A program made the position numbers and the translations under genes. This document shows positions 10,853-56,897 of a stretch of DNA of 64,000 nucleotides, in pieces (within the stretch, counting starts at the first letter, position 1; the number at the start of each line of letters is the position of its first letter). The stretch comes from Alloprevotella sp. (lineage in GTDB: Bacteria; Bacteroidota; Bacteroidia; Bacteroidales; Bacteroidaceae). The DNA is taken from contig JAFUTC010000002.1 of assembly GCA_017471505.1 (NCBI GenBank), positions 1-64,000 on the forward strand, read 5' to 3'. Under the pieces are notes generated by a model, which had not been told where the DNA came from, searched no databases, and saw only the letters and a list, made by a program, of their open reading frames with translations.

Positions 10853-10996
10853 ACTATGCGACCGAAAAACCCCATTATGACGCAAAAAAATTGCATTATG
10901 GAATCCAAAAATCCAATAATGCAATTTCGAAATTGTATAATGCAATTTTCAAATTCCATTATGCAATTTTCGCAGCCGATTATGCAATTTTCCGAC
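10853..10996. repeat. 21-base phased repeat array A (six clear units, one degenerate)
   Basis: Core hexamers ATWATG start at 10874, 10895, 10916, 10937, 10958 and 10979, each exactly 21 bases apart; a degenerate core (ACTATG) sits one period earlier at 10853. Flanks are of the form TTGC-core-CAATTTTCGAA, so each unit is a near palindrome around CATWATG. The array lies between the end of the transporter gene and the promoter of the next leftward operon. No reading frame in it looks like a gene. Confidence 0.9.
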
Positions 10997-11025
10997 CCGC
11001 CTATCGCGTTGACCCACAGGTCGTT

Positions 11026-11634
11026 TTAATCGTTCTGCGCCATAGGGTCAAACAGCCGGTAGAGGTTGCAGCCCACCAGGTTGCCAAGAACCTCGGCCAG
11101 ATAGAGCCACAGCGCACCCCACTGCCATAGGTTCTCCCACGGCTGCATGAGGAAATAGAACGCATCGGCTATGCTGTGCGTAAATCCGCACATGATGAAC
11201 GCCGGCACGCCAAAGAGAAGCGGCAGATACTGCCCCTTCGCGCCAAACTTCACGGCAACCGTCATGATAAATCCGCAACCAATGGCCAGACAGAAGCAGG
11301 CCAACGGCCCCTTTGCCATACGAGCCGCAAAAATGCCAGCGGCCGTCTCGGCAATGTCAGGGTTAGCATATTTCATCAGCAACGCACTCAGCAGGCAGCC
11401 GATAATGTTGCCCACCAGCACCATAAGCAAAAAGCGCTTGTCGTGCTTGCAATCGAAAAATCCAGCCTTGCCCGTGTAGAGAAGCCAACGGAAATGAACC
11501 ACCGTAAGTAACCCAAACGAGAACAACACGGCTCCCGCCAGGCCGCCCACTTTCAAATAGACCACGCATCCTATCGAGATGCTGATTCCGGCTAAGATGG
11601 TTTTTGCCCACTGACTGACTTTTTCCTGTATCAT
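11026..11634 (-). CDS. Formate/nitrite transporter family protein
   Basis: A 202-residue membrane protein with about six hydrophobic segments (TILAGISISIGCVVYLKVGG, GAVLFSFGLLTVVHF, FLLMVLVGNIIGCLLSALL, and further). The sequence WAKTILAGISISIG and the conserved glycine-rich turns fit the FNT channels that move formate, nitrite or hydrosulfide; the substrate is not decided. The ATG at 11634 is chosen because the promoter element TAACTTCG at 11664-11657 would lie too close to the longer start at 11655. It is shorter than E. coli FocA, as is usual in Bacteroidetes. Confidence 0.82.
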   Translation of the reverse strand: MIQEKVSQWAKTILAGISISIGCVVYLKVGGLAGAVLFSFGLLTVVHFRWLLYTGKAGFFDCKHDKRFLLMVLVGNIIGCLLSALLMKYANPDIAETAAGIFAARMAKGPLACFCLAIGCGFIMTVAVKFGAKGQYLPLLFGVPAFIMCGFTHSIADAFYFLMQPWENLWQWGALWLYLAEVLGNLVGCNLYRLFDPMAQND

Positions 11635-11656
11635 AGTGTTAAAATTTCCGACCATG

Positions 11657-11686
11657 CGAAGTTAAGCATCTTTCCGCTATCGCACA
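11657..11686 (-). promoter_or_regulatory. Promoter of the formate/nitrite transporter gene
   Basis: On the minus strand TTG (11686-11684), 19 bases, then TAACTTCG (11664-11657). It ends 22 bases before the chosen ATG and decides that start. Confidence 0.6.
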
Positions 11687-11778
11687 ACATTAAGACATAA
11701 AACCTTCTCGTTGCCAACCCCCTTGTTCCGGTTGACAAGTCCGTGCTACGAACCAGCCACACCATACTCCGGAAAAAC

Positions 11779-11810
11779 AAAACGAGCGAAGAAAAATCTT
11801 CGCTCGTTTT
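11779..11810 (-). terminator. Terminator after tRNA-Asp
   Basis: A perfect 14-base inverted repeat (11779-11792 with 11797-11810) with an AAAA loop; it directly abuts the encoded CCA end of tRNA-Asp. The A-rich arm becomes a U tract in the leftward RNA. Confidence 0.85.
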
Positions 11811-11887
11811 GGCGGTGCGTACGGGACTCGAACCCGTGACCCCCTGCGTGACAGGCAGATATTCTAACCAAGCTGAACTAACGCACC
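11810..11887 (-). tRNA. tRNA-Asp (GTC)
   Basis: On the minus strand the acceptor 5' strand GGTGCGT pairs with ACGCACC, the anticodon loop CTGTCAC has anticodon GTC, and the T-arm is CACGG GTTCGAG TCCCG-like. CCA is encoded (11812-11810). It stands alone, with its own promoter upstream and terminator downstream, in the 359-base gap between two protein genes. Confidence 0.95.
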
Positions 11888-11922
11888 ATAGGGTTTTGAA
11901 CTCACTTCCGTGAAATTCGGTG

Positions 11923-11953
11923 CAAAAGTATAATCAAATTTTATATCTCCAAA
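11923..11953 (-). promoter_or_regulatory. Promoter of tRNA-Asp
   Basis: The minus strand carries TTTG (11953-11950), exactly 19 bases, then TACTTTTG (11930-11923). It ends 36 bases before the tRNA 5' end. The -7 element is identical to that of the tmRNA gene. Confidence 0.75.
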
Positions 11954-12014
11954 ACTTTTGCCTGATTTTTTATAGTCGTGCCGACTTTTTTCCTCGTTGT
12001 CCCAACGCGCCGCC

Positions 12015-12512
12015 TTAGAAAATGCGACTGTAGAGCCATACATCCACGTAGCTTCCCTCGGCAAACGACCAGTCGGGCAATGTGGCAACCGCACGGAATG
12101 CGTTTTCCTCGAAAATAGCCTTACAGGCCGCGTGGGTGCGATGGCTGATTTTGGCCACGAGTTGGTGCAAATGGAGCGACTGCGAGGCCTGCTCGCACAA
12201 GAGTCGGAGCGCTGCGCCGCCCGCGCCTTGCAGCCGTTCGGATTCGAGCAGGGCAATGCCCACTTCTGCCCGCTGCGCGATGGGTTCGTAGTTGAACAGG
12301 TCGATGATGCCTATGGCACGACCGTCGCGCACAATGGTCTGGCGCAGTTGGCCCTGTCCGACGAGGTCGTAGGTCTGCGAGGCGATATAGTTCTTCAGTT
12401 CAAAGCGCGAATAGCATGTACCCGGCAGTCCGATGGTCCAGGCTTCGGGTGCGTTTTCTATGCGGTAGAGCAAATCCAAGTCTTCCGGCTCGAGAGGGCG
12501 CAAACTTATCAT
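12015..12512 (-). CDS. GNAT family N-acetyltransferase (RimJ/RimL-like)
   Basis: The 165-residue protein has the acetyltransferase fold: N-terminal strand ISLRPLEPEDLDLLYRIEN, motif A region with RAEVGIALLESERLQGAGGAAL (acetyl-CoA pyrophosphate loop, here QGAGGA) and the C-terminal HRTHAACKAIFEENAFRAV. Members of this branch acetylate protein N-termini, amino sugars or small amines; the substrate is not evident. It is the last gene of the leftward operon starting with the CDF exporter, 26 bases after the glycosyltransferase. Confidence 0.85.
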   Translation of the reverse strand: MISLRPLEPEDLDLLYRIENAPEAWTIGLPGTCYSRFELKNYIASQTYDLVGQGQLRQTIVRDGRAIGIIDLFNYEPIAQRAEVGIALLESERLQGAGGAALRLLCEQASQSLHLHQLVAKISHRTHAACKAIFEENAFRAVATLPDWSFAEGSYVDVWLYSRIF

Positions 12513-12538
12513 AGGACAATATTATGGAACGGAACAAA

Positions 12539-13723
12539 CTAACTGCACACGATGCCTCCGCCAATGAGTCCGCGGACGGAAGGATAGTAGAACCCGACAT
12601 AGTGGCTATGGTCCGACTCGGCAAGCGCGTGCAAGATGGAGGCGTAAGTATAGTCGGCCGTATCAAAAACCCACAGCGGATGGTTGCGGCTGAGGTTCCG
12701 GTCGGCCTGACAGGCGGCCAGCGCGGCATCGGGATTGTCGAAACTGACAAACGGCATCTGCCGGCCGTCGCAAAGCGCGCACACCTCTCCTTCCCTACTG
12801 CCCACATAGACCACGCCTATGGGACGGTCGGACTGCTGCGGTAGCAGGCGCCGCCAACCGGCTCGGACCATCCGCGTAGTCTTGTGCAGGACGGCACGCA
12901 AACCGATAGCCGCCTCGACCAATAGGGAAAGTGCACGATGGGTGGAGTGAAAATGCTTGCGATAGAAGAGAAGCATGGCGCGATGAAAGTGTTGCACGTA
13001 GCGAAGCGAGTCTTTCTGCGTGCTCTCACCCTTGTAGTGGAGAATGGGCGTAGGGAGATAGTAGTTCTGACGGCCGGACTGGCTGATGCGATACGACAAA
13101 TCGATGTCTTCGCCATACATAAAAAACTGCTCGTCGAAGCCGCCAACCTGCTGTATTACGGAACGCGGCACCCACATAAAGGCACCCGACACCACCTCTA
13201 TCGGCGCGGCCGCATCAACGGGTGTCTGGCTCTGATAGTAGCGTCCGAACGTCTTGGAACGCGGGAAGAGCGACGTAAGCCCCACTATCTTGCAGAAGGA
13301 CACCCATGGCGTGGGCAGCCCTCTGCGCGACTCCGGCGCAAAAGCACCGTTGTCCTTCAGCATGCGAACGCCCAACGCGCCTAAATCCGTATGCGACTGC
13401 GAGAAAGCCAGGCAGTCGGACAGCGTTTGCTCCGTCAGCGCCGTGTCGGGATTAAGGAAAAGCACATATTCGCCCTTGGCACGGCTCAGCGCAAGGTTGT
13501 TGGCACGTCCGAAGCCCAGGTTTTCGTTGCTCTGCACCCATGTCAGTTGCGGATAAGTGGATGCAGGAAACAGATGCGCTATGTACTCGCGACTGCCATC
13601 ACTGGAGTCGTTGTCGACCACAATGACTTCCACGTCTATCCCCTTGGCCGACTGCCACACGGAATGCAAGCACTGCGCCAAGTAGTGCTTCACATTGTAA
13701 CTGACAATAAGGATGCTAATCAT
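12539..13723 (-). CDS. Family 2 glycosyltransferase (rhamnosyltransferase-like)
   Basis: A 394-residue protein with an N-terminal GT-A fold: ILIVSYNVKHYL, VVDNDSSDGSRE, NLGFGRANNLAL, metal-binding FLNPDT, and the acceptor-site motif GAFMWVPRS...GGFDEQFFMYGEDIDLSYR. This matches the WbbL/RfbF-like transferases that add rhamnose or related sugars to cell-surface glycans. The C-terminal ~110 residues are not clearly assigned. Starts at 13735 (MSVPMISIL) and 13723 (MISILIVSYN) are both possible. It sits between a small membrane protein gene and the acetyltransferase gene. Confidence 0.87.
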   Translation of the reverse strand: MISILIVSYNVKHYLAQCLHSVWQSAKGIDVEVIVVDNDSSDGSREYIAHLFPASTYPQLTWVQSNENLGFGRANNLALSRAKGEYVLFLNPDTALTEQTLSDCLAFSQSHTDLGALGVRMLKDNGAFAPESRRGLPTPWVSFCKIVGLTSLFPRSKTFGRYYQSQTPVDAAAPIEVVSGAFMWVPRSVIQQVGGFDEQFFMYGEDIDLSYRISQSGRQNYYLPTPILHYKGESTQKDSLRYVQHFHRAMLLFYRKHFHSTHRALSLLVEAAIGLRAVLHKTTRMVRAGWRRLLPQQSDRPIGVVYVGSREGEVCALCDGRQMPFVSFDNPDAALAACQADRNLSRNHPLWVFDTADYTYASILHALAESDHSHYVGFYYPSVRGLIGGGIVCS

Positions 13724-13747
13724 GGGGACGGACATACAGACAAACAA

Positions 13748-14137
13748 CTATCGGGTTTCTTTGCGCGGCCAACACAAAACGCTGCCCAACAAGGTGATGA
13801 GACAGCAGTAGAAAGGTGTGGACGGCGGCGCAAGCAGGGTAAAGATGGCGGTGGTAATGATGGCGCACGAGATGATACCGGTGCGGACCAGCTGCATCTT
13901 CTCGAGGCGCTGTTCGCGCGGGTCCTTGTCCAAATAGTGCTTGACGCGCTCAAACCGGAAGAACCTGCACGCAAAATAGACTCCCGCGATGGCCTCGACC
14001 ACGCAGATGAGATTGACTACGTATATAAGTTGCGGGTCGGCAATAGGACGATCGGGAAAGACACCCATGAAATGGACGGCCAAAAATAGGACGGCCAGTA
14101 CCCAGGACTGTATGAGCAACAAACGTGATAGTTTCAT
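13748..14137 (-). CDS. Small integral membrane protein of unknown function
   Basis: The 129-residue protein has four hydrophobic stretches: WVLAVLFLAVHFMGV, LIYVVNLICVVEAIAGVYFAC, IISCAIITTAIFTLLA and TPFYCCLITLLGSVLCW. A cytoplasmic basic loop (RFERVKHYLDKDPREQRLEKM) lies in the middle. I recognise no enzyme motif. It is located between recR and the glycosyltransferase gene with short gaps (8 and 24 bases), so it is part of the same operon. This type is common in Bacteroidales beside glycosyltransferases, but its role is unknown. Confidence 0.65.
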   Translation of the reverse strand: MKLSRLLLIQSWVLAVLFLAVHFMGVFPDRPIADPQLIYVVNLICVVEAIAGVYFACRFFRFERVKHYLDKDPREQRLEKMQLVRTGIISCAIITTAIFTLLAPPSTPFYCCLITLLGSVLCWPRKETR

Positions 14138-14145
14138 AAACAGGT

Positions 14146-14766
14146 CTAACGGTTTTGTGCGTCGAGACTAACGCGGTTTACAATGGAACGGCCTAAGGTA
14201 ATCTCGTCGGCATACTCCAAATCGTCGCCCACGCTTACGCCGCGGGCCAACGTGGTCATTTTAATGTCGAAGGCCGCCAGTTTTCTCGATATGTAGAATA
14301 TGGTTGTGTCGCCCTCCATCGTAGGATTCAAGGCAAAAATAACTTCCGACACACCTCCTTGTGCCACTCTTTCGACAAGCGAGTCTATCTCGACGTCGTC
14401 GGGGCCTATGCCGTCAATCGGCGAAATTATGCCACCAAGCACATGGTAAAGGCCGTGATAGATTCCCGTACTCTCGATGGTCATAACCCCACGGATGTTT
14501 TCCACCACGCATATGATTGACTGGTTTCGTTGGGAGTCGGAGCAGATTTCGCATATATCCGTGTCGGAAATGTTATGGCAGACCTTGCAGTACTTTATGT
14601 CGTCCACCAACTGGCTAATGCTCTGCGCCAACGCCTGCCCGTCTTCTTTCTTGCGCCGTAATAGATGGAGCGCATAGCGCAGGGCCGTGCGTTGACCCAC
14701 GCCGGGAAGTTGCGAAAAAGCCTCTACACATTGGGCAAGCAACCGCGAAGAATACTGGTCAAGCAT
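14146..14766 (-). CDS. recR: Recombination mediator protein RecR
   Basis: The 206-residue protein has the helix-hairpin-helix [20 protein letters not shown], the zinc finger with Cys60, Cys63, Cys72 and Cys75, the Toprim motif [23 protein letters not shown], and the C-terminal [21 protein letters not shown]. RecR works with RecO and RecF to load RecA on gapped DNA. The length is standard. Second gene of the operon, 29 bases after the CDF exporter. Confidence 0.97.
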
Positions 14767-14795
14767 AGGTGTGAATTCATTTCGCTATAAAAGGG

Positions 14796-15719
14796 TCAGT
14801 GGTCATTATGCCCGCAACTGCAATCGTGGTCCTCGCAATGGGCGCCATCGTGCTCGAACTCGAGCGTACAATGGTGTATGCCCAATTCGCCAAGCCGATG
14901 CTTCAGCAGGTCTTTGGTGGGCTCCATCTCCGTAAGGCTATCTACCACGACGTGGGCGGTCAGTGCCACCTCGGTAGTGGAAATGGCCCAGATGTGTATG
15001 TGATGGACATCGACGATATGGTCGTGCGCCAGCATCTCGCTGCGAATCTGCTGCGGGTCGATGCCCTCGGGCATTCCGTCAAGGCTAAGACGCAGGCTCT
15101 CGGACAAAAGGCGCCAGGTCGATATGAAGATGACAGCGGCAATAACGAGCGAAATAATCGGGTCTATGTAAGTCCAGCCCGTGAGCAGGATAACGATACC
15201 GCTGATAACGACGCCGACCGACACCAGTGTGTCGGCAAGCATATGCAAGTAGGCGCCGCGCACATTGAGGTCCTTATTTCCGCGAGGCATAAGTAGCCAG
15301 GCTGTCAGGCCGTTGATAACGATTCCCACCCCAGCGGTCCACGAAATCAACCCACCGTCAACGGGCGACGGACTTATGAACTTGTGCACGCTCTCTATGA
15401 CAATGGCTCCCACGGCTACCAAAAGGATGAACGCATTAAGCAAAGAAATAAGAATGGTGCTTTTCTTGTATCCGTAGGTATAGGTTTTCGTTCCGTGCAA
15501 GCGAGCAAGTTGAATGCCGAACAGGGCCAGCACCAAAGAGAATACGTCGCCAAGATTGTGGCCCGCATCTGACAGCAGGCCCAACGATTGTCCGTAGAAA
15601 CCCACCCCTGCTTCCACAGCCACGAACAGCACATTCAGCACAATGCAAAAGACAAACGTGGCGCTAAGCGACTTGGGCGCTTCCACATGATGGTGATGAT
15701 GATGGTGGTGATGGTCCAT
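14796..15719 (-). CDS. Cation diffusion facilitator, zinc/cadmium exporter type
   Basis: A 307-residue CDF protein with six membrane helices. Metal-binding pairs are visible in helix 2 (SDAGHNLGDVFSL) and helix 5 (LHMLADTLVSVG), followed by a cytoplasmic domain (AHDHIVDVHHIHIWAISTTEVAL). The N-terminus has nine consecutive histidines directly after MD, and the C-terminus ends in HDGAHCEDHDCSCGHNDH, two likely metal-sensing tails. The ATG at 15719 is required because the promoter element lies at 15748-15741. It heads the recR operon. Confidence 0.92.
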   Translation of the reverse strand: MDHHHHHHHHHVEAPKSLSATFVFCIVLNVLFVAVEAGVGFYGQSLGLLSDAGHNLGDVFSLVLALFGIQLARLHGTKTYTYGYKKSTILISLLNAFILLVAVGAIVIESVHKFISPSPVDGGLISWTAGVGIVINGLTAWLLMPRGNKDLNVRGAYLHMLADTLVSVGVVISGIVILLTGWTYIDPIISLVIAAVIFISTWRLLSESLRLSLDGMPEGIDPQQIRSEMLAHDHIVDVHHIHIWAISTTEVALTAHVVVDSLTEMEPTKDLLKHRLGELGIHHCTLEFEHDGAHCEDHDCSCGHNDH

Positions 15720-15740
15720 TTGGTTCACAGGTTTAGATTG

Positions 15741-15748
15741 CAAAGGTA
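15741..15748 (-). promoter_or_regulatory. -7 element of the CDF/recR operon
   Basis: TACCTTTG on the minus strand matches TAnnTTTG and lies 21 bases before the ATG at 15719, ruling out the TTG start at 15743. It is divergent from the engB promoter in the same 159-base gap. Confidence 0.6.
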
Positions 15749-15835
15749 AGAAATAATATTATATGCCTGCCACACCTTTCGGCGAAATTATGCTATTTTG
15801 CAAGACGATTGGCACACTAATTGGCGGATTTAGAC

Positions 15836-15843
15836 TATATTTG
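15836..15843 (+). promoter_or_regulatory. -7 element of the engB operon
   Basis: TATATTTG matches TAnnTTTG and lies 35 bases before the engB start. The -33 position is weak. Confidence 0.55.
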
Positions 15844-15878
15844 CACCAAACAATCGGACTCACACACGCACCAACCGC

Positions 15879-16496
15879 ATGGACATAAAAAAAGCCGAGT
15901 TTATCATCAGCGCCGCCAAGTTAGGCCAATGCCCACCGACCACCTGTCCGGAATACGCATTCATCGGTCGAAGCAATGTAGGCAAGAGTTCCCTGATTAA
16001 CATGCTCACGGGGCGCAAAGGACTTGCAAAGACTTCGGCCACACCCGGCAAGACGCTCCTGATTAACTTCTTCAAGATAGACGACCGCTGGATGCTTGTC
16101 GACCTCCCCGGCTATGGCTATGCAAAGCGCGGAAAGGCGGTGCAGGAAGACTTGAAGCGCATCATCGAGTCGTATGTCTTTCAGCGTGAGCCACTCATCT
16201 GTCTTTTCGTGCTGGTGGACATTCGTCTGGAGCCGCAAAAGATTGACCTCGAATTTATCCATAGTCTTGGTGAACAAGGAGTGCCTTTTGCCATCATCTT
16301 TACCAAAGCCGACAAGGTGTCGGGTAGTAAGGCGCAGCAAAACATGGCAGCATTCAAGCGGAAACTCCATGAAGAGTGGGAGGAACTGCCTCCGATGTTT
16401 GCCACCAGCAGTGCTTCGCGTGCCGGCCGCCATGAAGTGCTCGACTACATCGATTCCATCAACCAACAACTGCTTGCAAGCAACCCAAAGCCGTGA
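15879..16496 (+). CDS. engB: Ribosome biogenesis GTP-binding protein EngB (YsxC/YihA)
   Basis: The 205-residue GTPase has the P-loop GRSNVGKSS (30-38), the switch I region SATPGKT, the G3 motif DLPGYGYAK, the G4 motif TKAD and the G5 segment ATSSASR. EngB is needed for late assembly of the 50S subunit. The length is typical. Its stop overlaps the GTG start of the following histidine kinase (GTGA), which couples the two. Confidence 0.95.
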
Positions 16497-17668
16497 TCAA
16501 CCGGACGCTCAAAATAGTATTTCTGCTCACGTCACTGCTCATTGCCGCAGTTTCGCTATGGGTGAGCAACTCGCTCATATCCGATCTGAAAAAGCAAGAG
16601 ATGCAGCGTGTCGAAATATGGGCCGAAGCAATGCGTTCGTTTATGGAGGCCGACGAAACCACAGACCTAAACCTGGTTTGGCATGTGCTGAATGACAACA
16701 ACACCATACCTGTGGTTGCGCTCTACGATAACGGCCAGGTTTTTGCCGCCAGAAACGTAGCCATACCCCAAGACAGCATCGAGGCCGCCCTTTCCGACAG
16801 CTTGACAACTGACCACCAACAACTGCTTTCGACCCTCAAGGCACGGGCTGCCATAATGAAACGCAACGGCACCTGCCTTGAAACACCGCTAAACGATAAG
16901 ACTTCCATCACTGTATGCTATGAGTCGTCGCTACTACTCAAGCGCCTGACTTGGTTCCCTTATATCCAGCTCGCCGTAGTGGCTCTGCTTCTGTTGCTGG
17001 CCTTTGCGGTGCTTTTGGCAGCCAAGCGCAACGAGCAAAACAAGGTTTGGGTAGGACTGTCGCGTGAGACTGCACACCAACTGGGCACTCCGCTGTCCTC
17101 GCTGATGGCTGGCGCGGCCATCCTGCACGAAGAAAATCCCGACAACCCCTTGCTGACTGAGATAGACAAGGACATAAACCGACTGCAACTAATAGCCGAA
17201 CGCTTCTCAAAAATAGGTTCCGTGCCCGTGCTGGAGTTGCAGCCGTTGCAAACCGTATTGGAACGTGTGGTTTCCTACCTGCAGAAACGCACAGGCAGCC
17301 ACATCGAGTTCGTGCAAGAGTTCCCCGAATCCGCCGTATATGCCCGCGTCAATGCCCCCTTGTTCGAATGGGTTATAGAAAACTTGTCGAAAAACGCAAT
17401 AGACGCCATGGGCGGCGAAGGACGGCTCACCATACGGATAGCAGAGACCTCGCAGCACATTATCACTGAGGTGTCGGACACCGGCAAAGGAATAGCGAAG
17501 AAAAACTGGCGGCGCGTATTCAAGCCCGGCTATACAACCAAGGCACGCGGCTGGGGACTCGGTCTGTCGCTGGCTCGGAGAATCGTGGAAGAGTATCACC
17601 GCGGAAAAATATTCGTTAAGACAAGTTCGCCCGAGGGAACCACGTTCTGCATCCAACTGAAGAAATAG
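16493..17668 (+). CDS. Membrane sensor histidine kinase without adjacent response regulator
   Basis: A 391-residue kinase starting with GTG: membrane helix at 7-25, a periplasmic sensor of about 125 residues, a second helix at about 158-177, then the dimerisation domain with the phospho-acceptor His195 ([14 protein letters not shown]) and an ATPase domain with an N-box in [16 protein letters not shown]1 DTGKGIAKK and G2 [11 protein letters not shown]. There is no HAMP domain. The sensor holds few motifs, so the signal is unknown. No response regulator is next to it, and the ribosome-assembly GTPase upstream overlaps it by four bases. Confidence 0.9.
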
Positions 17669-17723
17669 CCACCAGCGCTATCGCACCCATCCTCATCCCT
17701 ATAAAACACTTTTTTCGACCTAT

Positions 17724-19067
17724 ATGATAAAAGTTATCACTTATGGCACCTACGATCTTCTGCACTACGGCCACGTCAGGCTGCTAGAGCGCGCCAAGGC
17801 ATTAGGCGACTATCTGATTGTGGGAGTAACCGCCGATTCGTTCGACCAGGCCCGCGGAAAAATTAACGTACAGCAATCGCTCGTAGAACGCATTGAAGCC
17901 GTCCGCGCCACAGGACTGGCCGACGAAATCATTGTGGAAGAATACGACGGTCAAAAGATTGATGACATCCGTCGCTATGGCATCGACGTGTTTGCCATTG
18001 GTTCCGACTGGCAAGGCCGTTTCGACTACCTCAACGACTATTGCCGCGTGGTGTATCTCGAGCGAACCGACGGCGTGTCAAGCACCGAACTGCGGGCGCA
18101 ACAGAGAAACACGCGCATCGGTCTCGTGGGCGAACTCAACATGGTAAACAAATTCGAGGCGGAGTCGCACTTCGTGAACGGCGTCACTATTTCAGGCTTC
18201 TATGCCGCCGAGCAAAGTTTTCTGTCGGATGCAATTGTCAACCTGCCGCTTAAGGCAACGAGCCTGGACGAACTGCTCGATGCCAGCGACGCCATATATA
18301 TTGTCTCGCATCCCTCGCTTCACTACCGGCAGGCCAAGCAAGCCCTGCTGCGCGGCAAGCATGTCATCTGCGAAGCCCCCAGCTCGCTGTCGGCATCTGA
18401 ATGGGACGAACTGCAAGCCTTGTCCAAGGAACACAACTGCATATTAATGGACTCGATTAAGACGGCCTATTCGCTCGCCTATTCGAGATTGCTGCTGCTG
18501 GCAAAGAGCGGCAAAATCGGAAAAATAGTTTCTGTCGATGCCGTATGCACCAGCCTGACCGACTTAGCCATGAAGCAAGGCAAAGACCTATCGCACACGT
18601 GGAACAGCATGTGCCAGTGGGGACCAACAGCCTTGCTTCCGGTGTTTCAACTATTGGGCACGCAATATGTAGAGAAGTCGGTGGTCAGCCACTACTCCGA
18701 CGAACACGAAGGCTTCGACCTCTTCACGAAAGCCTCCTACATCTATCCCGATGCAGTAGCCTCGGTGAAGGTCGGAAAGGGTGTCAAGTCGGAAGGCGAA
18801 TTGGTCATCTCCGGCACAAAGGGCTACATCTATGTACCTGCCCCCTGGTGGAAGAACGCATACTTCGAAATCCGCTATGAAAACCCGGCCGACAATATGC
18901 GATACTTCTATCAAAACGACGGAGAGGGCATTCGCTACATGATTATGTCCTTTTTGCAGTCTATCGCCCACAACCGCCACCTCACCTATATACAGCCGGA
19001 AGTCTCAAGGGCTATTGTCGGCGAAATCGACTATTTCACCCACTCGGGAAAGGTTCGGAAAATCTGA
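17724..19067 (+). CDS. Cytidylyltransferase (TagD-like) fused to a Gfo/Idh/MocA-type oxidoreductase domain
   Basis: The 447-residue protein has two parts. Residues 1-130 match glycerol-3-phosphate cytidylyltransferase: GTYDLLHYGHVRLLERAK with the HxGH motif and RTDGVSSTELR (the RTxGxSTT signature). Residues 133-447 look like a Gfo/Idh/MocA dehydrogenase: a degenerate Rossmann start GLVGELNMV, SDAIYIVSHPSLHYRQAKQA, GKHVICEAP, and a C-terminal sheet domain. The usual EKP lysine is Ala here (E217-A218-P219) and the dinucleotide glycines are poor, so dehydrogenase activity is doubtful. It may make a CDP-activated polyol for a surface glycan. The sulfatase gene starts 8 bases later. Confidence 0.82.
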   Translation: MIKVITYGTYDLLHYGHVRLLERAKALGDYLIVGVTADSFDQARGKINVQQSLVERIEAVRATGLADEIIVEEYDGQKIDDIRRYGIDVFAIGSDWQGRFDYLNDYCRVVYLERTDGVSSTELRAQQRNTRIGLVGELNMVNKFEAESHFVNGVTISGFYAAEQSFLSDAIVNLPLKATSLDELLDASDAIYIVSHPSLHYRQAKQALLRGKHVICEAPSSLSASEWDELQALSKEHNCILMDSIKTAYSLAYSRLLLLAKSGKIGKIVSVDAVCTSLTDLAMKQGKDLSHTWNSMCQWGPTALLPVFQLLGTQYVEKSVVSHYSDEHEGFDLFTKASYIYPDAVASVKVGKGVKSEGELVISGTKGYIYVPAPWWKNAYFEIRYENPADNMRYFYQNDGEGIRYMIMSFLQSIAHNRHLTYIQPEVSRAIVGEIDYFTHSGKVRKI

Positions 19068-19074
19068 CACGCCT

Positions 19075-20619: not shown

Positions 20620-20628
20620 TCCTGAAAA

Positions 20629-20746
20629 TTGTATAATACAATCGCCGAATTGCATTATATAATTTCGAAATTGCATTATGGAATTCTGAACTTGCATTAT
20701 GGAATTTACCGATTTCATAATGCAATTTTTTCATTTCCCATTTACG
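20629..20746. repeat. 21-base phased repeat array B (five units plus shifted terminal unit)
   Basis: Cores start at 20633 (ATAATA), 20654 (ATTATA), 20675, 20696 and 20717, each 21 bases apart; typical flanks are TTGC before and GAATTT after. A possible terminal unit, CCCATTTAC, has its core at 20740, 23 bases after the last. The array starts 14 bases after the sulfatase stop, and one period before the first unit the stop region itself reads ATAAGTAAT. It ends about 100 bases before the tRNA-Ser promoter. Confidence 0.9.
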
Positions 20747-20851: not shown

Positions 20852-20878
20852 CACCCGATTTTAATAATCATCTCGACT

Positions 20879-30610: not shown

Positions 30611-30621
30611 AAGCTTGTCTG

Positions 30622-30747
30622 TCGCATAATGTGACAGAAAAATTGCATAATCGAATCTGAGAATTGCATAATACAATTTGAAAATTGCATAATTGAATTT
30701 CGCGATTGTATTATGCAATTTTTTCATCCCATAATCCAACTTTTTCC
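30622..30747. repeat. 21-base phased repeat array C (six units)
   Basis: Cores start at 30626 (ATAATG), 30647 (ATAATC), 30668 (ATAATA), 30689 (ATAATT), 30710 (ATTATG) and 30731 (ATAATC), all exactly 21 bases apart. Flanks are TTGC before and CAATTT or GAATTT after. It fills most of the 149-base gap between mlaD and the AI-2E family permease, and ends about 13 bases before that start codon; any translated peptide in it would only repeat heptads. Confidence 0.9.
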
Positions 30748-45786: not shown

Positions 45787-45814
45787 CTTTTTGCACCGTA
45801 CGGAAACCGGAAAA

Positions 45815-45915
45815 TCGCATTATGAAATCGCAAAATTCCATTATACAATCTGAAAATTGCATTATGGAATTGGCAAATTGCATAATTGGATTTTTCTGCG
45901 CCATTATGCAATCCG
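45815..45915. repeat. 21-base phased repeat array D (five units)
   Basis: Cores start at 45819 (ATTATG), 45840 (ATTATA), 45861 (ATTATG), 45882 (ATAATT) and 45903 (ATTATG), exactly 21 bases apart, with TTGC or TTCC before and CAAT or GAAT after. It is between the rubrerythrin terminator and the purA promoter, about 60 bases upstream of the latter. It is distinct from the terminator, which shows that the arrays are not simply transcription stops. Confidence 0.9.
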
Positions 45916-50497: not shown

Positions 50498-50528
50498 ATC
50501 TATTGTTCCTATCAATCAATCTATAGCA

Positions 50529-50570
50529 GAAAGGGAAGCGCCATGACCATTGGCGTCTCCCTTTCTTTTT
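50529..50570 (+). terminator. Terminator after the DUF349 gene
   Basis: Arms AGAAAGGGA..CGCCA (50529-50543) and TGGCG..TCCCTTTCT (50551-50565) with a 7-base loop, followed by TTTTT. It is 31 bases after the stop. Confidence 0.88.
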
Positions 50571-50606
50571 CCGCTCCGCAACCCATTCACCCACGCCATT
50601 TCCCCT

Positions 50607-52874
50607 ATGCGTCCCTTCCACCCCATACTCCGACGACTTGCGCTCATAAGCCTGTTCACCGTCCTGCCCGCTTTCCTGTCGCAAGCCCTGGCCGAATCGT
50701 CCGACCCCATTGGCGCACTGCTCCACCGCATACTTCCGCGCCACCACGATGCCGACCGATTCTCCTACCGGATTATTACCTCCGACCGACCGCACGACTT
50801 CTTCACGCTTTCGTCCGACGGACAGACCGTTCGCATTGAGGCAAACAGTCAACTCTCTGTCGCCACGGCCGTCAACTGGTTCTTGCAGCACCACGCCGGC
50901 GTGCAAATCGGGTGGAACCATATGCAGGGCGAACTTCCTACGGACCTTCCCATCGTCAAGTCCGAGACCCACGTGGCCACGGCCGACCTCCGCTACTATC
51001 TGAACTTCTGCACCCACAGTTACACAATGCCGTTCTGGGATTGGACGCGGTGGGAACAGGAAATCGACCTCATGGCGCTCCACGGCATAAACCTGCCACT
51101 CATCACCACAGGCTTCGAGTGCGTCTGGAAACGAGTTCTCGAGTCATACGGCTATCGGGACAGCGACGAGGTGGGCACTTTCATCCCGGGACCCACTTAT
51201 CTGGCGTGGTTCTATATGGCAAACATGAGCCAGTACGGCGGTCCTTTACCCAGGCAATGGTACCACAGGCAGGAACAACTGGCCCGCAAGATTTTCCGAC
51301 GCCTCCGCGACTTCGACATCACCCCTGTCGTACCCGGTTGGAACGGCATGATTCCGCACGACTTCCTACGGCATGCCCGCAAGGCCGAGGGATGGACCGA
51401 CACCACTATCGTGCCGACCGGCACATGGAATGCGTTCGAACGCCCGGCCTTAGTGGCCGACACCGCCCATATTGCCGAGTTCGCCAAAGCCTATTACGAA
51501 GCCGTCGACCATATTTACGGCGACGTGCTTCATACTCATTTCTATGCGCTCGACCCATTCCACGAGGGAAACGTGCCTGCCACCCTGCAACCGCAGCCAC
51601 TTGTCGATGCACTCTATAAGTCGCTGCTCCGCCACGACAGTCGTTCCGTGTGGGTTGCACAGTGCTGGGAAGGCAATCCACAAGGGTTCGTCACGAAAAC
51701 CATACCCAAGCACCGCCTTCTCCTGCTGCACCTGAACGGCGACACGGAGAATCCGACCAACCCGCATATTCTCCACACCGACCGCCAAGACCTGCCACAC
51801 GACTGGCTATTGGGATGCGTCAACAACTTTGGCGGAAACACCGGCTACTTCGGCCGTCTCCGCCAAATGTCCGGACACTATGCACAGGCCATGGCGCAAT
51901 CGTCGCACAACGCACTCCGCGGCATTGCCTACCTGCCCGAAGGTATCGAAAACAACGAGATGCTCTTCGACTTCCTCTTTGCCCTGCCGTGGTATGCCGA
52001 GATTCCGTCGCAAGAGGAATGGGTGCAGACCTACGCCACTATGCGCTACGGGCTTCCCCTAAAAGAAAACCAACAGGGGCACGACCTTCTGACCCAAGCC
52101 TGGCAGCTGTTGGCCGACGGCATCTACAACTGTCCGAACCCGAGGCAGCAAGGTGCCACCGAGAGTGTGTTCCTGATGCGTCCGAGCCATCAGCCGGGCA
52201 GCGTCAGTACGTGGGCTAACTCTTCCTGGTATTGGTCGGCCGATAGTCTTACGAAAGCCGTCGGCCTGTTTGCCGAAGCCGCCCCCTACTTTATGCACAA
52301 CGATCGCTATGCCTACGACCTGGTCGACATCACGCGCCAATGGCTCGGCGACAAGGGCAAACTCGTGCTCGACTCGCTCCAGTCGTCCGATGCGGCTTGT
52401 CGCCCGTGTCTGCAACACTATTTCCTCAGTCTGATTCTCGATGCCGACACGCTGCTGGCCACTCGTCCGGAGTTCCGGCTCGGACACTGGACCGAACCGG
52501 CCCGTCGCGCCGGACATACACATAGGCAGGCCGACCGATACGAACGTCTTGCACGCACGCTTCTCACCACCTGGGCCGACAGTGCTGCCTGCAATGTGGG
52601 CCGACTACACGACTACGCCAACCACGAGTATGCAGGTCTGCTTTCGGCCTACTATTACCCGCGCTGGATGGCCTATTTCTCCGGTCAGCACACTACGCCG
52701 GCCGAATGGTTTGCCTATTTTGAGCGTCCGTTCGCCGAGGGCATCGAAAGTCGCAACAAGGTTTTCATGCCAAAAGGTGCCGCCTATCGACTCGGTCGTT
52801 TCTCCGAGCGCCGAAAAGGTCAGTCGGTGCCCACCGCGCTGCGCCTCATACGGAAACATTGGCTTCTTCCATAG
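50607..52874 (+). CDS. Alpha-N-acetylglucosaminidase (GH89, NAGLU-like)
   Basis: From MRPFHPILRRL the protein has 755 residues, with a signal peptide ending near QALA. It has the three-domain NAGLU layout: a small N-terminal domain (GALLHRILPRHHDADRF, SPRP-like strand), a TIM-barrel-like middle region (YYLNFCTHSYTMPFWDWTRWEQEIDLMALHGINLPL, RKIFRRLRDFDITPVVPGWNG, YALDPFHEGNVP, AQCWEGNPQG) and an all-helical C-terminal domain. It removes terminal alpha-1,4-GlcNAc from mucin or heparan-like glycans. Not next to SusC/D genes. The ATG at 50550 is rejected, as it lies inside the terminator. Confidence 0.93.
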   Translation: MRPFHPILRRLALISLFTVLPAFLSQALAESSDPIGALLHRILPRHHDADRFSYRIITSDRPHDFFTLSSDGQTVRIEANSQLSVATAVNWFLQHHAGVQIGWNHMQGELPTDLPIVKSETHVATADLRYYLNFCTHSYTMPFWDWTRWEQEIDLMALHGINLPLITTGFECVWKRVLESYGYRDSDEVGTFIPGPTYLAWFYMANMSQYGGPLPRQWYHRQEQLARKIFRRLRDFDITPVVPGWNGMIPHDFLRHARKAEGWTDTTIVPTGTWNAFERPALVADTAHIAEFAKAYYEAVDHIYGDVLHTHFYALDPFHEGNVPATLQPQPLVDALYKSLLRHDSRSVWVAQCWEGNPQGFVTKTIPKHRLLLLHLNGDTENPTNPHILHTDRQDLPHDWLLGCVNNFGGNTGYFGRLRQMSGHYAQAMAQSSHNALRGIAYLPEGIENNEMLFDFLFALPWYAEIPSQEEWVQTYATMRYGLPLKENQQGHDLLTQAWQLLADGIYNCPNPRQQGATESVFLMRPSHQPGSVSTWANSSWYWSADSLTKAVGLFAEAAPYFMHNDRYAYDLVDITRQWLGDKGKLVLDSLQSSDAACRPCLQHYFLSLILDADTLLATRPEFRLGHWTEPARRAGHTHRQADRYERLARTLLTTWADSAACNVGRLHDYANHEYAGLLSAYYYPRWMAYFSGQHTTPAEWFAYFERPFAEGIESRNKVFMPKGAAYRLGRFSERRKGQSVPTALRLIRKHWLLP

Positions 52875-52879
52875 ACTGA

Positions 52880-52925
52880 CACCATACTACGGCACAGAAA
52901 TTGCATTATGTAATTTTGAAAAACC
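52880..52925. repeat. Solitary 21-base repeat unit (copy F)
   Basis: One clear unit, TTGCATTATGTAATTTTGAAA (core 52905), and a degenerate core ATACTA one period earlier at 52884. It lies 30 bases after the GH89 stop and before the small lipoprotein gene, the same position relative to genes as the longer arrays. It could be a remnant or seed of an array. Confidence 0.6.
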
Positions 52926-53010
52926 AGCGTTTTTTCGCCCAAAAGAAGTAACTTCGCTTTTCATACCATCACACAATCCATCCACACCACCCATCTTTTC
53001 ACCCCAAACA

Positions 53011-53379
53011 ATGAAGTACACTCTCTTCGCCCTATCGACCCTGCTGCTATTCCTATTGTGGGGCTGCATTCCCGAGGACCGTTCGGGCGAACAGCCGTTT
53101 GCTCCGACAGTTGTCACATTGGGCGCTACGCCTCAAGCCAACTCCGTAGTGGTAGAGGGCGAGATTCAACTCTCGCCCAATAGCCTCATAACTGGTTGCG
53201 GCTTCACCTGGGGCAACGACACACTCCGCCGACAAGAACTCATAGCCGGCGACATTGAGAACTACTTCAGCACGGTCATCGAAGACCTCGAGCCGGGCGA
53301 CTACTTCGTGGCCGCATTTGCCACCAATGGTGTGGGAACCAGTTATGGCGACACGCTGGTCTTCACCATTGACAACTAA
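53011..53379 (+). CDS. Small lipoprotein with fibronectin-like strand pattern
   Basis: The 122-residue protein has a lipoprotein signal (LSTLLLFLLWGCIPED, lipid Cys19) and a body that reads like a single Ig/FN3-like sandwich of strands (VVTLGATPQANSVVVEGEIQL, GCGFTWGNDTLRRQ, YFVAAFATNGVGTSYGDTLVFTI). This phrase set is like repeats found in surface proteins that accompany glycan-degrading systems. No enzyme motif is seen. It lies between the GH89 gene and rsfS; a TAACTTCG element (about 52943-52950) may be its promoter. Confidence 0.65.
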   Translation: MKYTLFALSTLLLFLLWGCIPEDRSGEQPFAPTVVTLGATPQANSVVVEGEIQLSPNSLITGCGFTWGNDTLRRQELIAGDIENYFSTVIEDLEPGDYFVAAFATNGVGTSYGDTLVFTIDN

Positions 53380-53424
53380 GCCGCTCCCCTATTTCCATCC
53401 ATCCAGAAACCTAACCAACCCAAC

Positions 53425-53784
53425 ATGACTCCTACAGAAAAACTCGTTGACAGCCTCGTTCGTGGCATGCAAGAGAAGAAAGCATTCGACATCATAACCA
53501 TAGACTTGCGCAACACGCCATCTGCACCCGCACAGTTCTTTGTCATCTGCTCGGGCAATACGCCCACGCAGGTGGATGCTATTGCTGGCAGTGCGTCCGA
53601 CTTTGCCCGCAAAGAATTGGCCGAGAAGCCCACGTCGGTAGCAGGTTTGCGCAATGCCGAATGGATAGCCTTCGACTACGGCACCGTAATGGTGCATGTC
53701 TTCATCCCGCAGAAACGCGAGTACTACGATATCGAATCGCTGTGGAACGATGGCATCTTCCACGAAATCCCAAACCTCGATTAG
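53425..53784 (+). CDS. rsfS: Ribosomal silencing factor RsfS
   Basis: The 119-residue protein has the RsfS core: VDSLVRGMQEKKAFDIITIDLRN, FFVICSGNTPTQVDAIAGS, AEWIAFDYGTVMVHVFIPQKREYYDIESLW. It binds L14 on the 50S subunit and blocks subunit joining in poor conditions. Located directly before ftsH (21-base gap), a conserved neighbourhood in Bacteroidetes. Confidence 0.95.
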   Translation: MTPTEKLVDSLVRGMQEKKAFDIITIDLRNTPSAPAQFFVICSGNTPTQVDAIAGSASDFARKELAEKPTSVAGLRNAEWIAFDYGTVMVHVFIPQKREYYDIESLWNDGIFHEIPNLD

Positions 53785-53805
53785 CAAACAACCCTTTTAC
53801 GCTCT

Positions 53806-55884
53806 ATGGCAAACGCACCAAAGAAAAAAGGAAAGGTACCCCATTTCAGTGCCACCTTGCTCTATGTGCTCATCCTTATCGGCATACTGACGGCCATCAA
53901 TCTGCCGTCTTTCCAGAATGCCTCTGTCAACAAGGATGTCACTTACACAGAGTTGCAGAACTATATCAAGAAAGGCTACGGTAAGAATATCGCCATCAAC
54001 AAGACGGATGGCACGGCCAAGCTGTATATCAAGGGCGAACACATCCGTGACGTGTTCCAGCAAACCTCCAATGAGGTGGGCAAGGAGCCATCTGTCAGCG
54101 CACAGGTGCCTTCTCCCGAATTAATCTACCAGTTTCTCAACGAACAGGGCTTTGCCGGAAAAATTGAGTATAAGACGTCGAGCGGACTGGTTACCAGCAT
54201 CATCATGAATGTAGGCTGGATTCTGTTGTTCTTCGGTTTTTGGTATTTCATCTTCGGACGTATCGGCCGCTCGTCTAAGGGCGGTGGCATCTTCAGCGTG
54301 GGAAAGAGCCAGGCCCGACTATTTGAGAAAGAAAACGGAACCAACGTATCTTTCAAGGACGTAGCCGGACAGGAAGGTGCCAAGCAAGAAGTGCAGGAAA
54401 TCGTGGACTTTCTGAAAAATCCGGGGCACTACACCGAACTGGGCGGTAAGATTCCCAAAGGCGCCTTGCTGGTAGGTCCTCCGGGAACGGGCAAGACGCT
54501 CTTGGCAAAGGCTGTGGCTGGCGAGGCAAACGTTCCGTTCTTCTCGCTCTCAGGCTCCGACTTCGTTGAGATGTTTGTCGGCGTCGGTGCCAGTCGTGTT
54601 CGCGACCTGTTCCGCCAAGCCAAAGAAAAAGCGCCCTGCATTATCTTCATCGACGAGATTGATGCCATCGGACGCGCCCGTGGTCGGAACATGAACGTCG
54701 GCAGCAACGACGAACGCGAGAGTACGCTCAATCAGTTGCTCACGGAAATGGACGGCTTCGATACGAACAGCGGTGTCATACTGCTTGCCGCCACCAACCG
54801 CGCCGACATTCTCGACAAGGCACTGCTTCGCGCCGGCCGCTTCGACCGTCAGATTCATGTCGACCTGCCCGATTTGGCCGAGCGTGTCGCCATTTTCAAG
54901 GTACATCTGCGTCCTGTGAAATACGACCAGAGCATTGACGTCGAACTGCTGGCTCGCCAGACGCCGGGCTTCAGTGGTGCCGACATCGCCAACGTGTGCA
55001 ACGAGGCTGCCCTCATTGCCGCACGCCACAAGCATACCACCGTCGTCAAGCAAGACTTTATCGACGCCGTCGACCGTATTATTGGCGGCCTGGAGAAGAA
55101 GACAAAGGTGATGACGGAAGAGGAAAAGCGTGTCATTGCCTTACACGAGGCCGGCCATGCCAGCGTGTCCTGGTTGCTGGAATATGCCAATCCGCTGGTC
55201 AAGGTAACCATCGTGCCGCGCGGACAGGCCCTCGGCGCTGCCTGGTACTTGCCCGAAGAGCGCACCATAACCACACGCGAGCAGATGCTCGACGAACTCT
55301 GCGCCTTGCTTGGCGGACGTGCCGCCGAAGAGGTGTTCACGGGCCACATCTCAAGCGGAGCGCTCAACGACCTTGAGCGAGCCACGAAGAGCACATACGG
55401 AATGGTGGCCTACCTTGGCATGAGCGACAAACTCTCTAACCTCTGCTACTACAACAACGAGGAATACGGATTTACGAAGCCCTATTCCGAGAAAACCTCC
55501 GAGACTATCGACGCCGAAGTCCAGCGCATCATCAGCGAACAGTATGAACGCGCCAAGCAAATACTGACCGAGCACGCCGAACAACACGCCGAACTGGCTC
55601 GCGTGCTTACGGAGCGCGAGGTAATCTTTACCGAAGACGTCGAGAAGATATTCGGCCCGCGTCCGTGGAAGAGTCGCGCCGACCAGCTGCTCGAAGAACA
55701 AGAGGACGCCAAGCGCAAAAAGGCCGAGGCCATGGCTGAAGCCCACGCACGCGCCAAGGCTGCGAAAGCCGAAGCCGAAGCAAGCGCAGCCGGCATGCCT
55801 GCCGACGAGTCGCAACTGCCACCTCCGCCCCCGACGCCCAATGGCACCAGTCCGCAACCTACTAACGAACCTACTCATGAATAA
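53806..55884 (+). CDS. ftsH: ATP-dependent zinc metalloprotease FtsH
   Basis: The 692-residue protein has two N-terminal membrane helices ([16 protein letters not shown] and [19 protein letters not shown]), the AAA domain with Walker A GPPGTGKT (224-231) and Walker [12 protein letters not shown], the SRH region, and the zinc-binding HEAGH starting at His447. It degrades membrane and short-lived proteins. The C-terminal ~60 residues are unusually rich in Ala/Glu/Pro with a run of prolines (LPPPPPTP). The stop overlaps the start of cdsA by 8 bases, so the pair is co-translated. Confidence 0.97.
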
Positions 55885-56725
55885 CCTTCTGCTGCGCACC
55901 CTTACGGGCATAGCCTTTCTCATTGTGATGATTGGCGGCATCGTGCTTTCGCCCGTCACGTTCATCCTACTCTTTGCCGCCGTCACAGGACTAGTGACGT
56001 GGGAGTTTGTCACGCTCGTCAACAACCATACCGAAGCCAGCGTCAACCGCGTCATCTGCACGGCCGGTGCCGTCTATTTGTTTTTTGCCTTTGCAGCCTA
56101 CTGCGGGGCATGGCAAGGTGTCGAAGTGTTTGTGCCTTATGTGCTCACACTCATCTATCTGCCCATTGCCGAACTCTATCTGAAAAACAAGCGGCCCATC
56201 GAAAGCTGGGCATACGCCTTTGCCGCGCACCTGTATGTGGCTCTGCCGTTCGCACTGCTCTCTGCCCTTGCCTTCATCGGCAACGATGTTAACGGACTGA
56301 ACACTTACAACTGGCAGTTGCCCCTGAGCATTTTCGTGTTCTTGTGGGTAAACGACACGGGCGCCTATTGCGTGGGTTCGTTGCTCCGAAATCGGTTCAA
56401 GGCCAAGTTGTTTGAGCGCATATCGCCTAAGAAAAGTTGGGTGGGCAGTATTGGCGGCGGCCTATTCGTGCTTATGGCAGCCGCCCTGTTCTATGCGCTC
56501 ACTCCGCTCAATATGTCGCTGCTCCAATGGCTCGGACTGGGACTGACGGTAGCCGTATTCGGCACGTGGGGCGACTTGGTGGAGAGCCACATCAAACGCA
56601 CCTTCGGCGTGAAAGACAGCAGCAACGTCCTGCCAGGACACGGCGGTTTTCTCGACCGCTTCGACAGCAGCCTGATTGCCATACCGGCCGCCGTGCTCTA
56701 CCTTTACACCCTCATGTTCCTGTAA
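55877..56725 (+). CDS. cdsA: Phosphatidate cytidylyltransferase
   Basis: From [21 protein letters not shown] the protein has 282 residues and about eight membrane helices. The C-terminal signature GDLVESHIKRTFGVKDSSNVLPGHGGFLDRFDS is the CDP-diglyceride synthetase motif. It makes CDP-diacylglycerol for phospholipid synthesis. It overlaps ftsH by eight bases and is the last gene before repeat array E. Length and motif are typical. Confidence 0.95.
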   Translation: MNNLLLRTLTGIAFLIVMIGGIVLSPVTFILLFAAVTGLVTWEFVTLVNNHTEASVNRVICTAGAVYLFFAFAAYCGAWQGVEVFVPYVLTLIYLPIAELYLKNKRPIESWAYAFAAHLYVALPFALLSALAFIGNDVNGLNTYNWQLPLSIFVFLWVNDTGAYCVGSLLRNRFKAKLFERISPKKSWVGSIGGGLFVLMAAALFYALTPLNMSLLQWLGLGLTVAVFGTWGDLVESHIKRTFGVKDSSNVLPGHGGFLDRFDSSLIAIPAAVLYLYTLMFL

Positions 56726-56759
56726 GCCCGTCGGCCGACGGCATAGGACAGTTGTCCGA

Positions 56760-56897
56760 TTCAATTATGGAATGAAAAAATTGCATAATTGAATTTTGAA
56801 ATTGCATTATGGAATTTTCCGATTTCATAATGCAATTTTTTTGTCGCATAATCGAATTTCCAGCCGCCATAATGCAATCTGCCGGCATCCCATTTCA
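56760..56897. repeat. 21-base phased repeat array E (six units plus degenerate and terminal units)
   Basis: Cores start at 56764 (ATTATG), 56785 (ATAATT), 56806 (ATTATG), 56827 (ATAATG), 56848 (ATAATC) and 56869 (ATAATG), exactly 21 bases apart; a degenerate ATAGGA sits one period earlier at 56743. A terminal CCCATTTCA is centred on 56892, 23 bases after the last core, as in array B. It lies after cdsA and about 120 bases upstream of the padR promoter region. Confidence 0.9.

Follow-up and report, generated by a model that had tools for sequence, protein, structure and literature searches.

The question raised by this locus is why short tandem arrays with an exact 21-bp period recur between genes along one stretch of an Alloprevotella chromosome. 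The window is positions 1-64000 of contig C14 in the Alloprevotella sp. genome G000 (1.44 Mb assembly, 77% complete), and it contains five arrays and a solitary unit of the same kind (Table 1). A first-pass annotation had described the arrays as a dispersed intergenic family with a layout resembling iterons or operator arrays. The signal is real and larger than that annotation stated; the even spacing of the arrays, unit sequences that are specific to each species and a different unit family in the array centre lay beyond its view. The best explanation, to which we assign a probability of about 45%, is that the arrays are phased sites for a symmetric protein that form a lattice of chromosome anchors with a fast-changing recognition sequence. 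No description of such arrays was found in the open-access literature, as far as its text was available.

Palindromic units in exact helical phase

The unit family of the window arrays is termed A, and other unit families are termed B and C. The A consensus is AAAATTGCATWATGCAATTTT and has the form AAAATTGCAT-W-ATGCAATTTT; the near palindrome proposed earlier holds, with its centre corrected to W. A recount recovered all five reported arrays with 6, 5, 6, 5, and 6 in-phase AT[AT]AT cores (28 total), and every in-phase step was 21 bp as had been claimed. Array 2 has one additional AT[AT]AT match that overlaps and is out of phase. The matrix-scored spans of arrays 1 to 5 are 5, 5, 5, 5, and 6 units.

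A palindromic matrix was built from 26 window units and used with a match cut-off of 12 bits. On contig C1 (352 kb) it gave 154 matches of at least 12 bits compared to 0-2 for five column-permuted matrices, and 100 successive distances between these matches were exactly 21. C1 and C14 together comprise 447 kb, where neighbouring strong units 13-90 bp apart were separated by multiples of 21 in 135/136 cases: 21 (130), 42 (4), 63 (1), and 71 (1). The same result was obtained without the matrix, as 90/90 pairs of CATWATG no more than 70 bp apart on C1 and C14 fell at 21, 42 or 63. Autocorrelation of noncoding DNA from 20 loci of the same genome (383 kb; 18 loci on C1 and two on C14 beyond the window, which was excluded) detected 37 clusters at lag 21 and 33 at lag 42, compared to a mean of 0.46 at other lags. 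In the 1.44 Mb genome the exact pattern ATTGCATWATGNAATTT matched 73 times (39 on the forward and 34 on the reverse strand, perfect palindromes matching on both), and its reversed control had no match. Neither the column-permuted matrices nor other lags reproduce the signal, which exceeds chance. These data support a family dispersed over many chromosomal loci with an exactly phased two-turn spacing, both as first annotated.

Arrays on C1 and C14 were defined as 42 of the 76 matrix match groups, the remainder being single or scattered matches. Five units were spanned by 30 arrays, four by seven, six by three, and three by two; the earlier range of five to seven units thus gives way to a usual size of five. 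Positional analyses used 37 aligned arrays (5/42 were left out as weak or irregular, and array C1:231803 was read one unit in). Core matches of at least 5/7 occurred at units 1 to 5 in 37, 37, 37, 37, and 35 of the 37 arrays and at the units just outside in 13 and 9. The information content in G000 is 17-28 bits per 21 bp inside the five units compared to 3.0-5.9 outside. The array edge is sharp with a faint in-phase remnant beyond it.

Conservation is concentrated at the unit centre. Pairwise identity among units 2-4 is 98.6% for the central TWA, the most conserved part of the unit, 80% for the 12-base core and 57% for the linkers, in agreement with the claim that the core is kept while linkers diverge. 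Linkers are ~4-6 bp, and A/T tracts flank the units. Mirrored half pairing was 0.717 for U2-U4 compared to 0.724 for permuted halves, and 0.586 compared to 0.606 for U1-U5; no RNA pairing covariation between units 1/5 and 2/4 was found in the aligned G000 arrays. Left and right half-sites within a unit vary independently or oppositely (at ±4: paired 0.34, expected 0.47). Half-site independence and the lack of covariation between units indicate that an RNA hairpin is not the object of selection, and the missing covariation speaks against an RNA hairpin or terminator. Palindromic units, a two-turn phase and conserved cores with free linkers, together with the absence of RNA covariation, suggest that a symmetric DNA-binding protein occupies neighbouring units side by side.

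Two further features of the units were observed. In a comparison of ten unit pairs, units 1 and 5 had the same central W base in 30/37 arrays, as though the two outermost units formed a separate class. Solitary A units also occur in the genome, and a three-unit, 22-bp-spaced palindromic cluster of the GTCCAA..TTGGAC type (G000:C1:305234) lies alongside the 21-bp arrays.

Unit families across related genomes

The exact A pattern was present in 2/37 Alloprevotella genomes, G000 and the sister genome G002 (Alloprevotella sp. RGIG5064 from roe deer rumen, 58% complete; 8 matches). It was absent from two further Alloprevotella genomes, from 58 genomes of other genera of the family and from 24 genomes of other families of the order. 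A two-unit pattern scan of named genomes, among which records of G000 itself may be missing, returned three stretches of Alloprevotella sp. RGIG5064 and one match in Fusibacter bizertensis. A search for any short period was run on noncoding DNA from 32 other Alloprevotella genomes, with samples of 2.5-148 kb per genome. Lag 21 accounted for 39 clusters and lag 22 for 16, spread over 20/32 genomes, compared to a sum of 71 over 35 other lags with harmonics included; a few of these clusters lie in coding DNA, are simple repeats or represent one array seen twice, and several small samples lacked arrays. The units of the relatives differ from A and are partly GC-rich, and many are palindromic, such as GTTACAAASTTTGTAAC (G036), GTGACTTTAAAGTCAC (G012), ACAACCTAGGTTGT (G010, 22 bp) and AAACTTAGGCTTAATTT (G035). 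A dyad test reached p ≤ 0.01 for 26/55 lag-21/22 clusters of the relatives compared to 13/71 at other lags, counting two arrays twice (G012 and G020) and including several clusters that look coding or like simple repeats.

A period of 22 bp also occurs beyond the genus. In 283 kb (coding included) drawn from 16 stretches of other genera of the family, lag 22 gave 13 clusters and lag 44 gave four, compared to 0-3 at other lags; on visual inspection some of the 13 did not look palindromic. A two-unit 22-bp pattern allowing ≤3 mismatches occurred in 17 places of the complete genome G065, and its control in none. The 261 kb sampled from other families of the order contained no convincing array.

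Unit sequences are specific to species. The 15-bp core TTACAAASTTTGTAA has 209 exact copies in G036 and none in 36 other genomes, and linkers were variable across the 19 G036 arrays viewed. By eye, the species unit occupies the middle in 19/19 of these arrays, with other 21-bp units and A/T tracts on both sides. Related species with similar rows of different site sequences suggest a fast-evolving chromosome-organizing protein system.

Two genomes have a second family in the array centre with the older one in phase outside it. The B family, TTTCACASTGTGAAA, has 49 sites in G002, 5 in G030 and none in 35 other genomes, and B blocks have three units in 8/10 examined. An A core lies one unit outside the block in 14/20 flanks, where the other offsets predict 0.30. 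The counts are 10, 8 and 8 of 20 at two, three and four units out, with 0.3-0.55 at other offsets; the first seven B blocks alone have A cores at 1-4 units out in 11, 6, 6 and 5 of 14 flanks. The C family, TTYCAAGSCTTGRAA, has 24 sites in G000 and 1-5 sites in each of five other genomes. C blocks in G000 have three units each, and in four of them an A core lies one unit out in 7/8 flanks and two units out in 0/8, over an off-phase background of 1.7%. The G000 layout, A-C-C-C-A, looks like that of a five-unit array whose three central units had been exchanged without loss of phase. The C-family word is also spaced at 22 bp in G024 (C18:7575) and at 22/44 bp in G023 (C162:2499), compared to 21 bp in G000 (C1:61383). 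Its occurrence at both 21 and 22 bp shows that ruler and word are separable.

Individual loci were compared between G000 and G002. The locus 3' of the thymidine kinase gene holds five A units in G000, the last weak, and in G002 a single B unit flanked on one side by decayed A-like cores that are in phase; the gene beyond differs. The locus after tRNA-Gln holds five A units in G000 and about six decayed A units in G002. Both loci compared (2/2) retain an array or a remnant. The first synteny comparison of G002 stretches to G000 matched 5/124 genes. In ~10 kb aligned between the close pair G015 and G017, one indel was viewed and held no array by eye.

Gene context and even spacing

Gene calls on C1 and C14 came from a rough gene caller. 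No called gene was overlapped by 36 of the 42 arrays; the overlap is ≤12 bp per gene for five others and 101 bp for the remaining one (C1:20670). The claim that arrays never lie in genes is correct for the window (5/5 intergenic). Gene orientation was analyzed for 41 arrays, of which 40 were placed; C1:4288, with two strong matches, was left out. Counting intergenic regions that are at least 100 bp or bear an array, arrays were present in 10/18 convergent, 23/82 tandem and 7/35 divergent regions, a preference for convergent over divergent regions with p = 0.013. Arrays between tandem genes lean slightly to the upstream gene (16/23). With this bias toward convergent pairs, a reading of the arrays as classical promoter operators is not supported.

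Spacing was analyzed with an automatic array criterion (31 + 9 arrays on C1 and C14), which differs from the 42-array set. The gaps have a mean of 10.7 kb, a coefficient of variation (CV) of 0.43 and a minimum of 4.3 kb. Random intergenic picks had a CV of 0.91, and 0/3000 draws were as even as observed; there were no gaps under 4 kb compared to 11 expected for random intergenic regions. Four other thresholds gave agreement. On C4 of G000 the A and C arrays are interleaved, with a nearest A-C distance of 8.6 kb (P = 0.0035 if C is random) and a CV of 0.44 for the A+C lattice (P = 0.00045); two weak or solitary groups (25192 and 59526) were left out, and the A positions are a mixture of exact-pattern sites and arrays. 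The B arrays of G002 have a minimum gap of 8.2 kb on its C14 (P = 0.00035), where 7/10 gaps are 10-12 kb, and P = 0.002 on C10, whose length was assumed. Among the G036 matches listed (100 rows), seven contigs carry two or more clusters, and no two clusters on a contig lie closer together than 12.4 kb, a spacing that 0/20000 simulations reproduced. The arrays are evenly spaced, tend to avoid divergent promoters and share loci with the sister, which points to a chromosome-scale role rather than gene control.

At the gathering threshold, Rfam matched only tmRNA and two tRNAs in the window, with no match on the arrays. A Pfam scan of the ten genes flanking the arrays and one further gene detected no replication initiator, and the gene downstream of the solitary unit had no Pfam match. 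A separate GC-rich hairpin with a T run lies between the rubrerythrin gene and array 4 by eye.

Table 1. Coordinates of arrays and isolated A-family units in the window and elsewhere in G000.
Feature	Position	Strand	Units and gene context
Array 1	10866..10991	.	six in-phase 21-bp units, first weak; neighbours are a formate/nitrite transporter gene and a glycosyltransferase gene, both on the minus strand
Array 2	20625..20729	.	five units; directly past the stop of a sulfatase gene, ahead of tRNA-Ser
Array 3	30618..30743	.	six in-phase units, first weak; neighbours are an MlaD-domain gene and an AI-2E-family transporter gene
Array 4	45811..45915	.	five units; rubrerythrin gene before, adenylosuccinate synthetase gene after
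Array 5	56756..56881	.	six units; flanked by CTP_transf_1 (cytidylyltransferase) and PadR-like genes
Solitary strong A-family unit	52897..52917	.	93 bp upstream of a called gene start
Isolated units at tRNA synthetase and argR genes	G000 C1:166203, 172088, 239119; C14:84151

Possible anchors, mobile repeats or operators

In the lattice explanation each array consists of about five palindromic sites in a row, which a symmetric (dimeric) protein would recognize by their sequence. Neighbouring sites would be bound cooperatively on the same helix face, as 21 or 22 bp is two turns. Together the arrays, which number about one per 10 kb here and lie mostly outside promoters, would make up a lattice of roughly regular spacing that may serve as chromosome-organizing anchors for compaction, as a loop or domain boundary, or as a nucleoid or division mark. 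The lattice and its helical ruler would be older than the recognition sequence, which would turn over fast. A new unit family would fill the centre of existing arrays in phase, the simplest reading in G000 being exchange of the middle three of five, and then spread over the lattice while the old flanking units decay. The new block might spread by gene conversion, for which the outer A units would provide homology arms, or by an insertion that resembles homing. We infer the protein, its cooperativity, the anchoring role and the mode of block spread from the pattern of sites. A word that changes fast within a frame that is kept suggests co-evolution with the protein.

A broader version of this explanation is more tentative. 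A lattice of phased palindromic anchors might exist throughout the Bacteroidaceae, with a recognition code that is repeatedly rewritten so that each species has its own word, new words entering array centres with the helical phase intact, and one genome carrying two words on its lattice. Such a code would resemble centromere satellites or PRDM9 sites. New repeat families in animal centromeric satellites arise in the centre, with older ones decayed outside. The comparison is an analogy that implies no homology, as the arrays here have about five units, occupy many loci and belong to a bacterium. If correct, the lattice would be an undescribed, regularly spaced chromosome-organizing system in a major gut and rumen bacterial family. 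It would also be an example from bacteria in which a DNA-binding protein and its genome-wide sites co-evolve rapidly, with intermediates visible within single genomes, and array DNA used as bait would give a direct handle on the nucleoid proteins of Bacteroidales.

The closest functional parallels are the matS/MatP and SlmA sites of Escherichia coli, which PMC3116907 describes as palindromic or near-palindromic, dispersed and acting in chromosome organization or division. They number 23 (matS) and 50 (SlmA) per genome and are short, single and domain-restricted. The likeness is in palindromic protein sites over the chromosome, the protein sites here being predicted. The differences are phased arrays of about five units every ~10 kb, a fast-changing sequence and site sequences unlike those quoted in PMC3116907. 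Other short-repeat systems fit less well. BrickBuilt of Porphyromonas gingivalis, as described in PMC4596501, is a miniature inverted-repeat transposable element (MITE) with 23-nt repeats, a leader, a tail and insertion sequence (IS)-like terminal repeats. It is likewise a dispersed Bacteroidales element between genes with short tandem repeats; the units here are palindromic and 21/22 bp, and terminal inverted repeats and conserved ends were not encountered in G000. CRISPR repeats are 24-48 bp (repeat size from PMC3733652) with unique spacers between them. The arrays have 21-bp units with linkers of ~4-6 bp and do not fit that description. Plasmid iterons are ~20-bp repeats about two helical turns apart, located in the replication origin beside the rep gene. 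The proposed iteron likeness is not supported, with arrays dispersed over many chromosomal loci and no rep gene among the ten flanking genes scanned. None of the known repeat families tested fits.

Several results weigh against the lattice. The near-complete relative G004 has no convincing array in 124 kb, and G065 arrays are unevenly placed under the strict pattern. A arrays alone on C4 are not even (P = 0.27), and restoring the two omitted groups reduces the nearest A-C distance to 3.5 kb, with a CV of 0.51 (P = 0.0014) and a minimum-gap P of 0.010. G002 B arrays on its C5 have no minimum-gap effect (P = 0.41), and mutual exclusion of a mobile repeat could itself produce evenness. Linker identity between arrays is 0.547 at the same index compared to 0.411 otherwise, a homology that makes the arrays partly copies of a common element. 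An imperfect unit occupies the same place, second of four, in 12/19 G036 arrays, which together with linker homology indicates shared ancestry as copies. Because the second outer unit in the sister is an A core in 10/20 flanks, block exchange and insertion are not separated there. All eight isolated units of at least 19 bits, the definition of a strong isolated unit, lie at or upstream of called gene starts (8/8), which gives them a regulatory look. Finally, the binding protein and its binding are predictions.

The uneven placement in G065 has a pattern of its own. On its contig C1 (dnaA at 609) no strict-pattern array occurs at 196-1541 kb and most lie at 1.54-2.69 Mb; these arrays are possibly domain-restricted.

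The main rival is a nested selfish repeat, which is unlikely and yet fits several of these results. Non-autonomous palindromic elements, similar to repetitive extragenic palindromic (REP) sequences or MITEs, would copy into the centre of older copies, avoid neighbours in a manner like target immunity and be tolerated between genes. The species-specific bursts (209 cores in G036, 49 sites in G002), new blocks within older arrays, positional homology of linkers, the shared imperfect unit in G036 and, by eye, a long inverted repeat flanking one G035 array are all in line with such copying. However, sequence outside the G000 arrays is hardly conserved, which indicates that there are no terminal repeats, and the elements keep phase and usual size and conserve cores over linkers. 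REP sequences and bacterial interspersed mosaic elements (BIMEs) associated with REP-associated tyrosine transposases (RAYTs) are high-copy, mostly intergenic, palindromic and in some families species-specific, according to PMC3733652. The arrays are also high-copy intergenic palindromes; they differ in the exact 21-bp phase and lack of pairing covariation, and the A consensus has no GTAG/CGTC tag. PF01797, the RAYT-type Y1 transposase, was matched in 19/37 genomes of the genus at up to 5 per genome and was unmatched in G000 and G002 at their 77% and 58% completeness. Twenty loci around RAYT genes (62 kb) contained few arrays by eye, without a formal test. RAYT-driven REP copying was judged less likely on these two results. 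A selfish repeat with a helical ruler and phase-keeping central blocks would also be apparently new.

In G035 (L098:11090-11290) a four-unit array lies inside a long near-perfect inverted repeat that ends in A/T tracts, and it resembles an array within a terminator stem (both by eye).

A BIME- or terminator-like element located at the 3' ends of genes, with an effect on supercoiling or on RNA ends, is improbable. It would account for the convergent preference, the lean to the upstream gene in tandem pairs and the A/T tracts that flank the units. A hairpin requires neither exact phase nor even spacing, however, and pairing covariation is absent, array 4 follows a separate terminator-like hairpin, and divergent regions hold 7/40 of the arrays placed.

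Operators of a transcription regulator with helically phased boxes, such as an ArgR or Lrp type, have a still smaller chance of being the answer. ARG boxes, the palindromic sites of the ArgR hexamer, are likewise about two turns apart (~21 bp centre to centre), usually paired and located at promoters. The arrays have about five units of changing sequence and favour convergent over divergent regions instead. The case for a regulator comes from the strong isolated units, which include three upstream of genes for tRNA synthetases (Trp/Tyr-, Phe-, and class-II Pro-like) and one upstream of an arginine-repressor gene. The ArgR-like protein is also less conserved than PheT, with 31-42% identity across the genus (55% in the sister) compared to 60-78%. 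The isolated units may be real operators, possibly of an amino-acid-related regulon, or array remnants. The pheT unit is the outer unit of a C block, and of the three weaker isolated units that were checked, two are placed differently, one within a called gene and the other far from any start. The G036 unit near argR belongs to an ordinary array further upstream, outside the promoter proper, and pheT upstream regions of other species have no obvious copies of their own unit (both by eye). ArgR had no match in 10/37 genomes, and several incomplete genomes without a match still have arrays. ArgR was judged an unlikely binder, as argR and pheT upstream regions of relatives lack species-specific units in their promoters by eye.

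Neutral tandem duplication by slippage in A/T-rich intergenic DNA has next to no likelihood: the units are tandem and A/T-rich here, but the same ruler operates on unrelated, partly GC-rich units in other species, phase errors are nearly absent despite linkers that are 57% identical, and the usual unit number and even spacing complete a set of phase and spacing data that already contradict it.

Two observations concern the ArgR-like protein itself. The protein encoded at L020:248-739 has GFDT at the position at which GDDT is found in many relatives. G000 carries two copies of the argR-like gene (C7:600-1088 and C14:84248-84736) with 100% protein identity; the C7 copy lies near the contig start, and the duplicate is possibly assembly redundancy.

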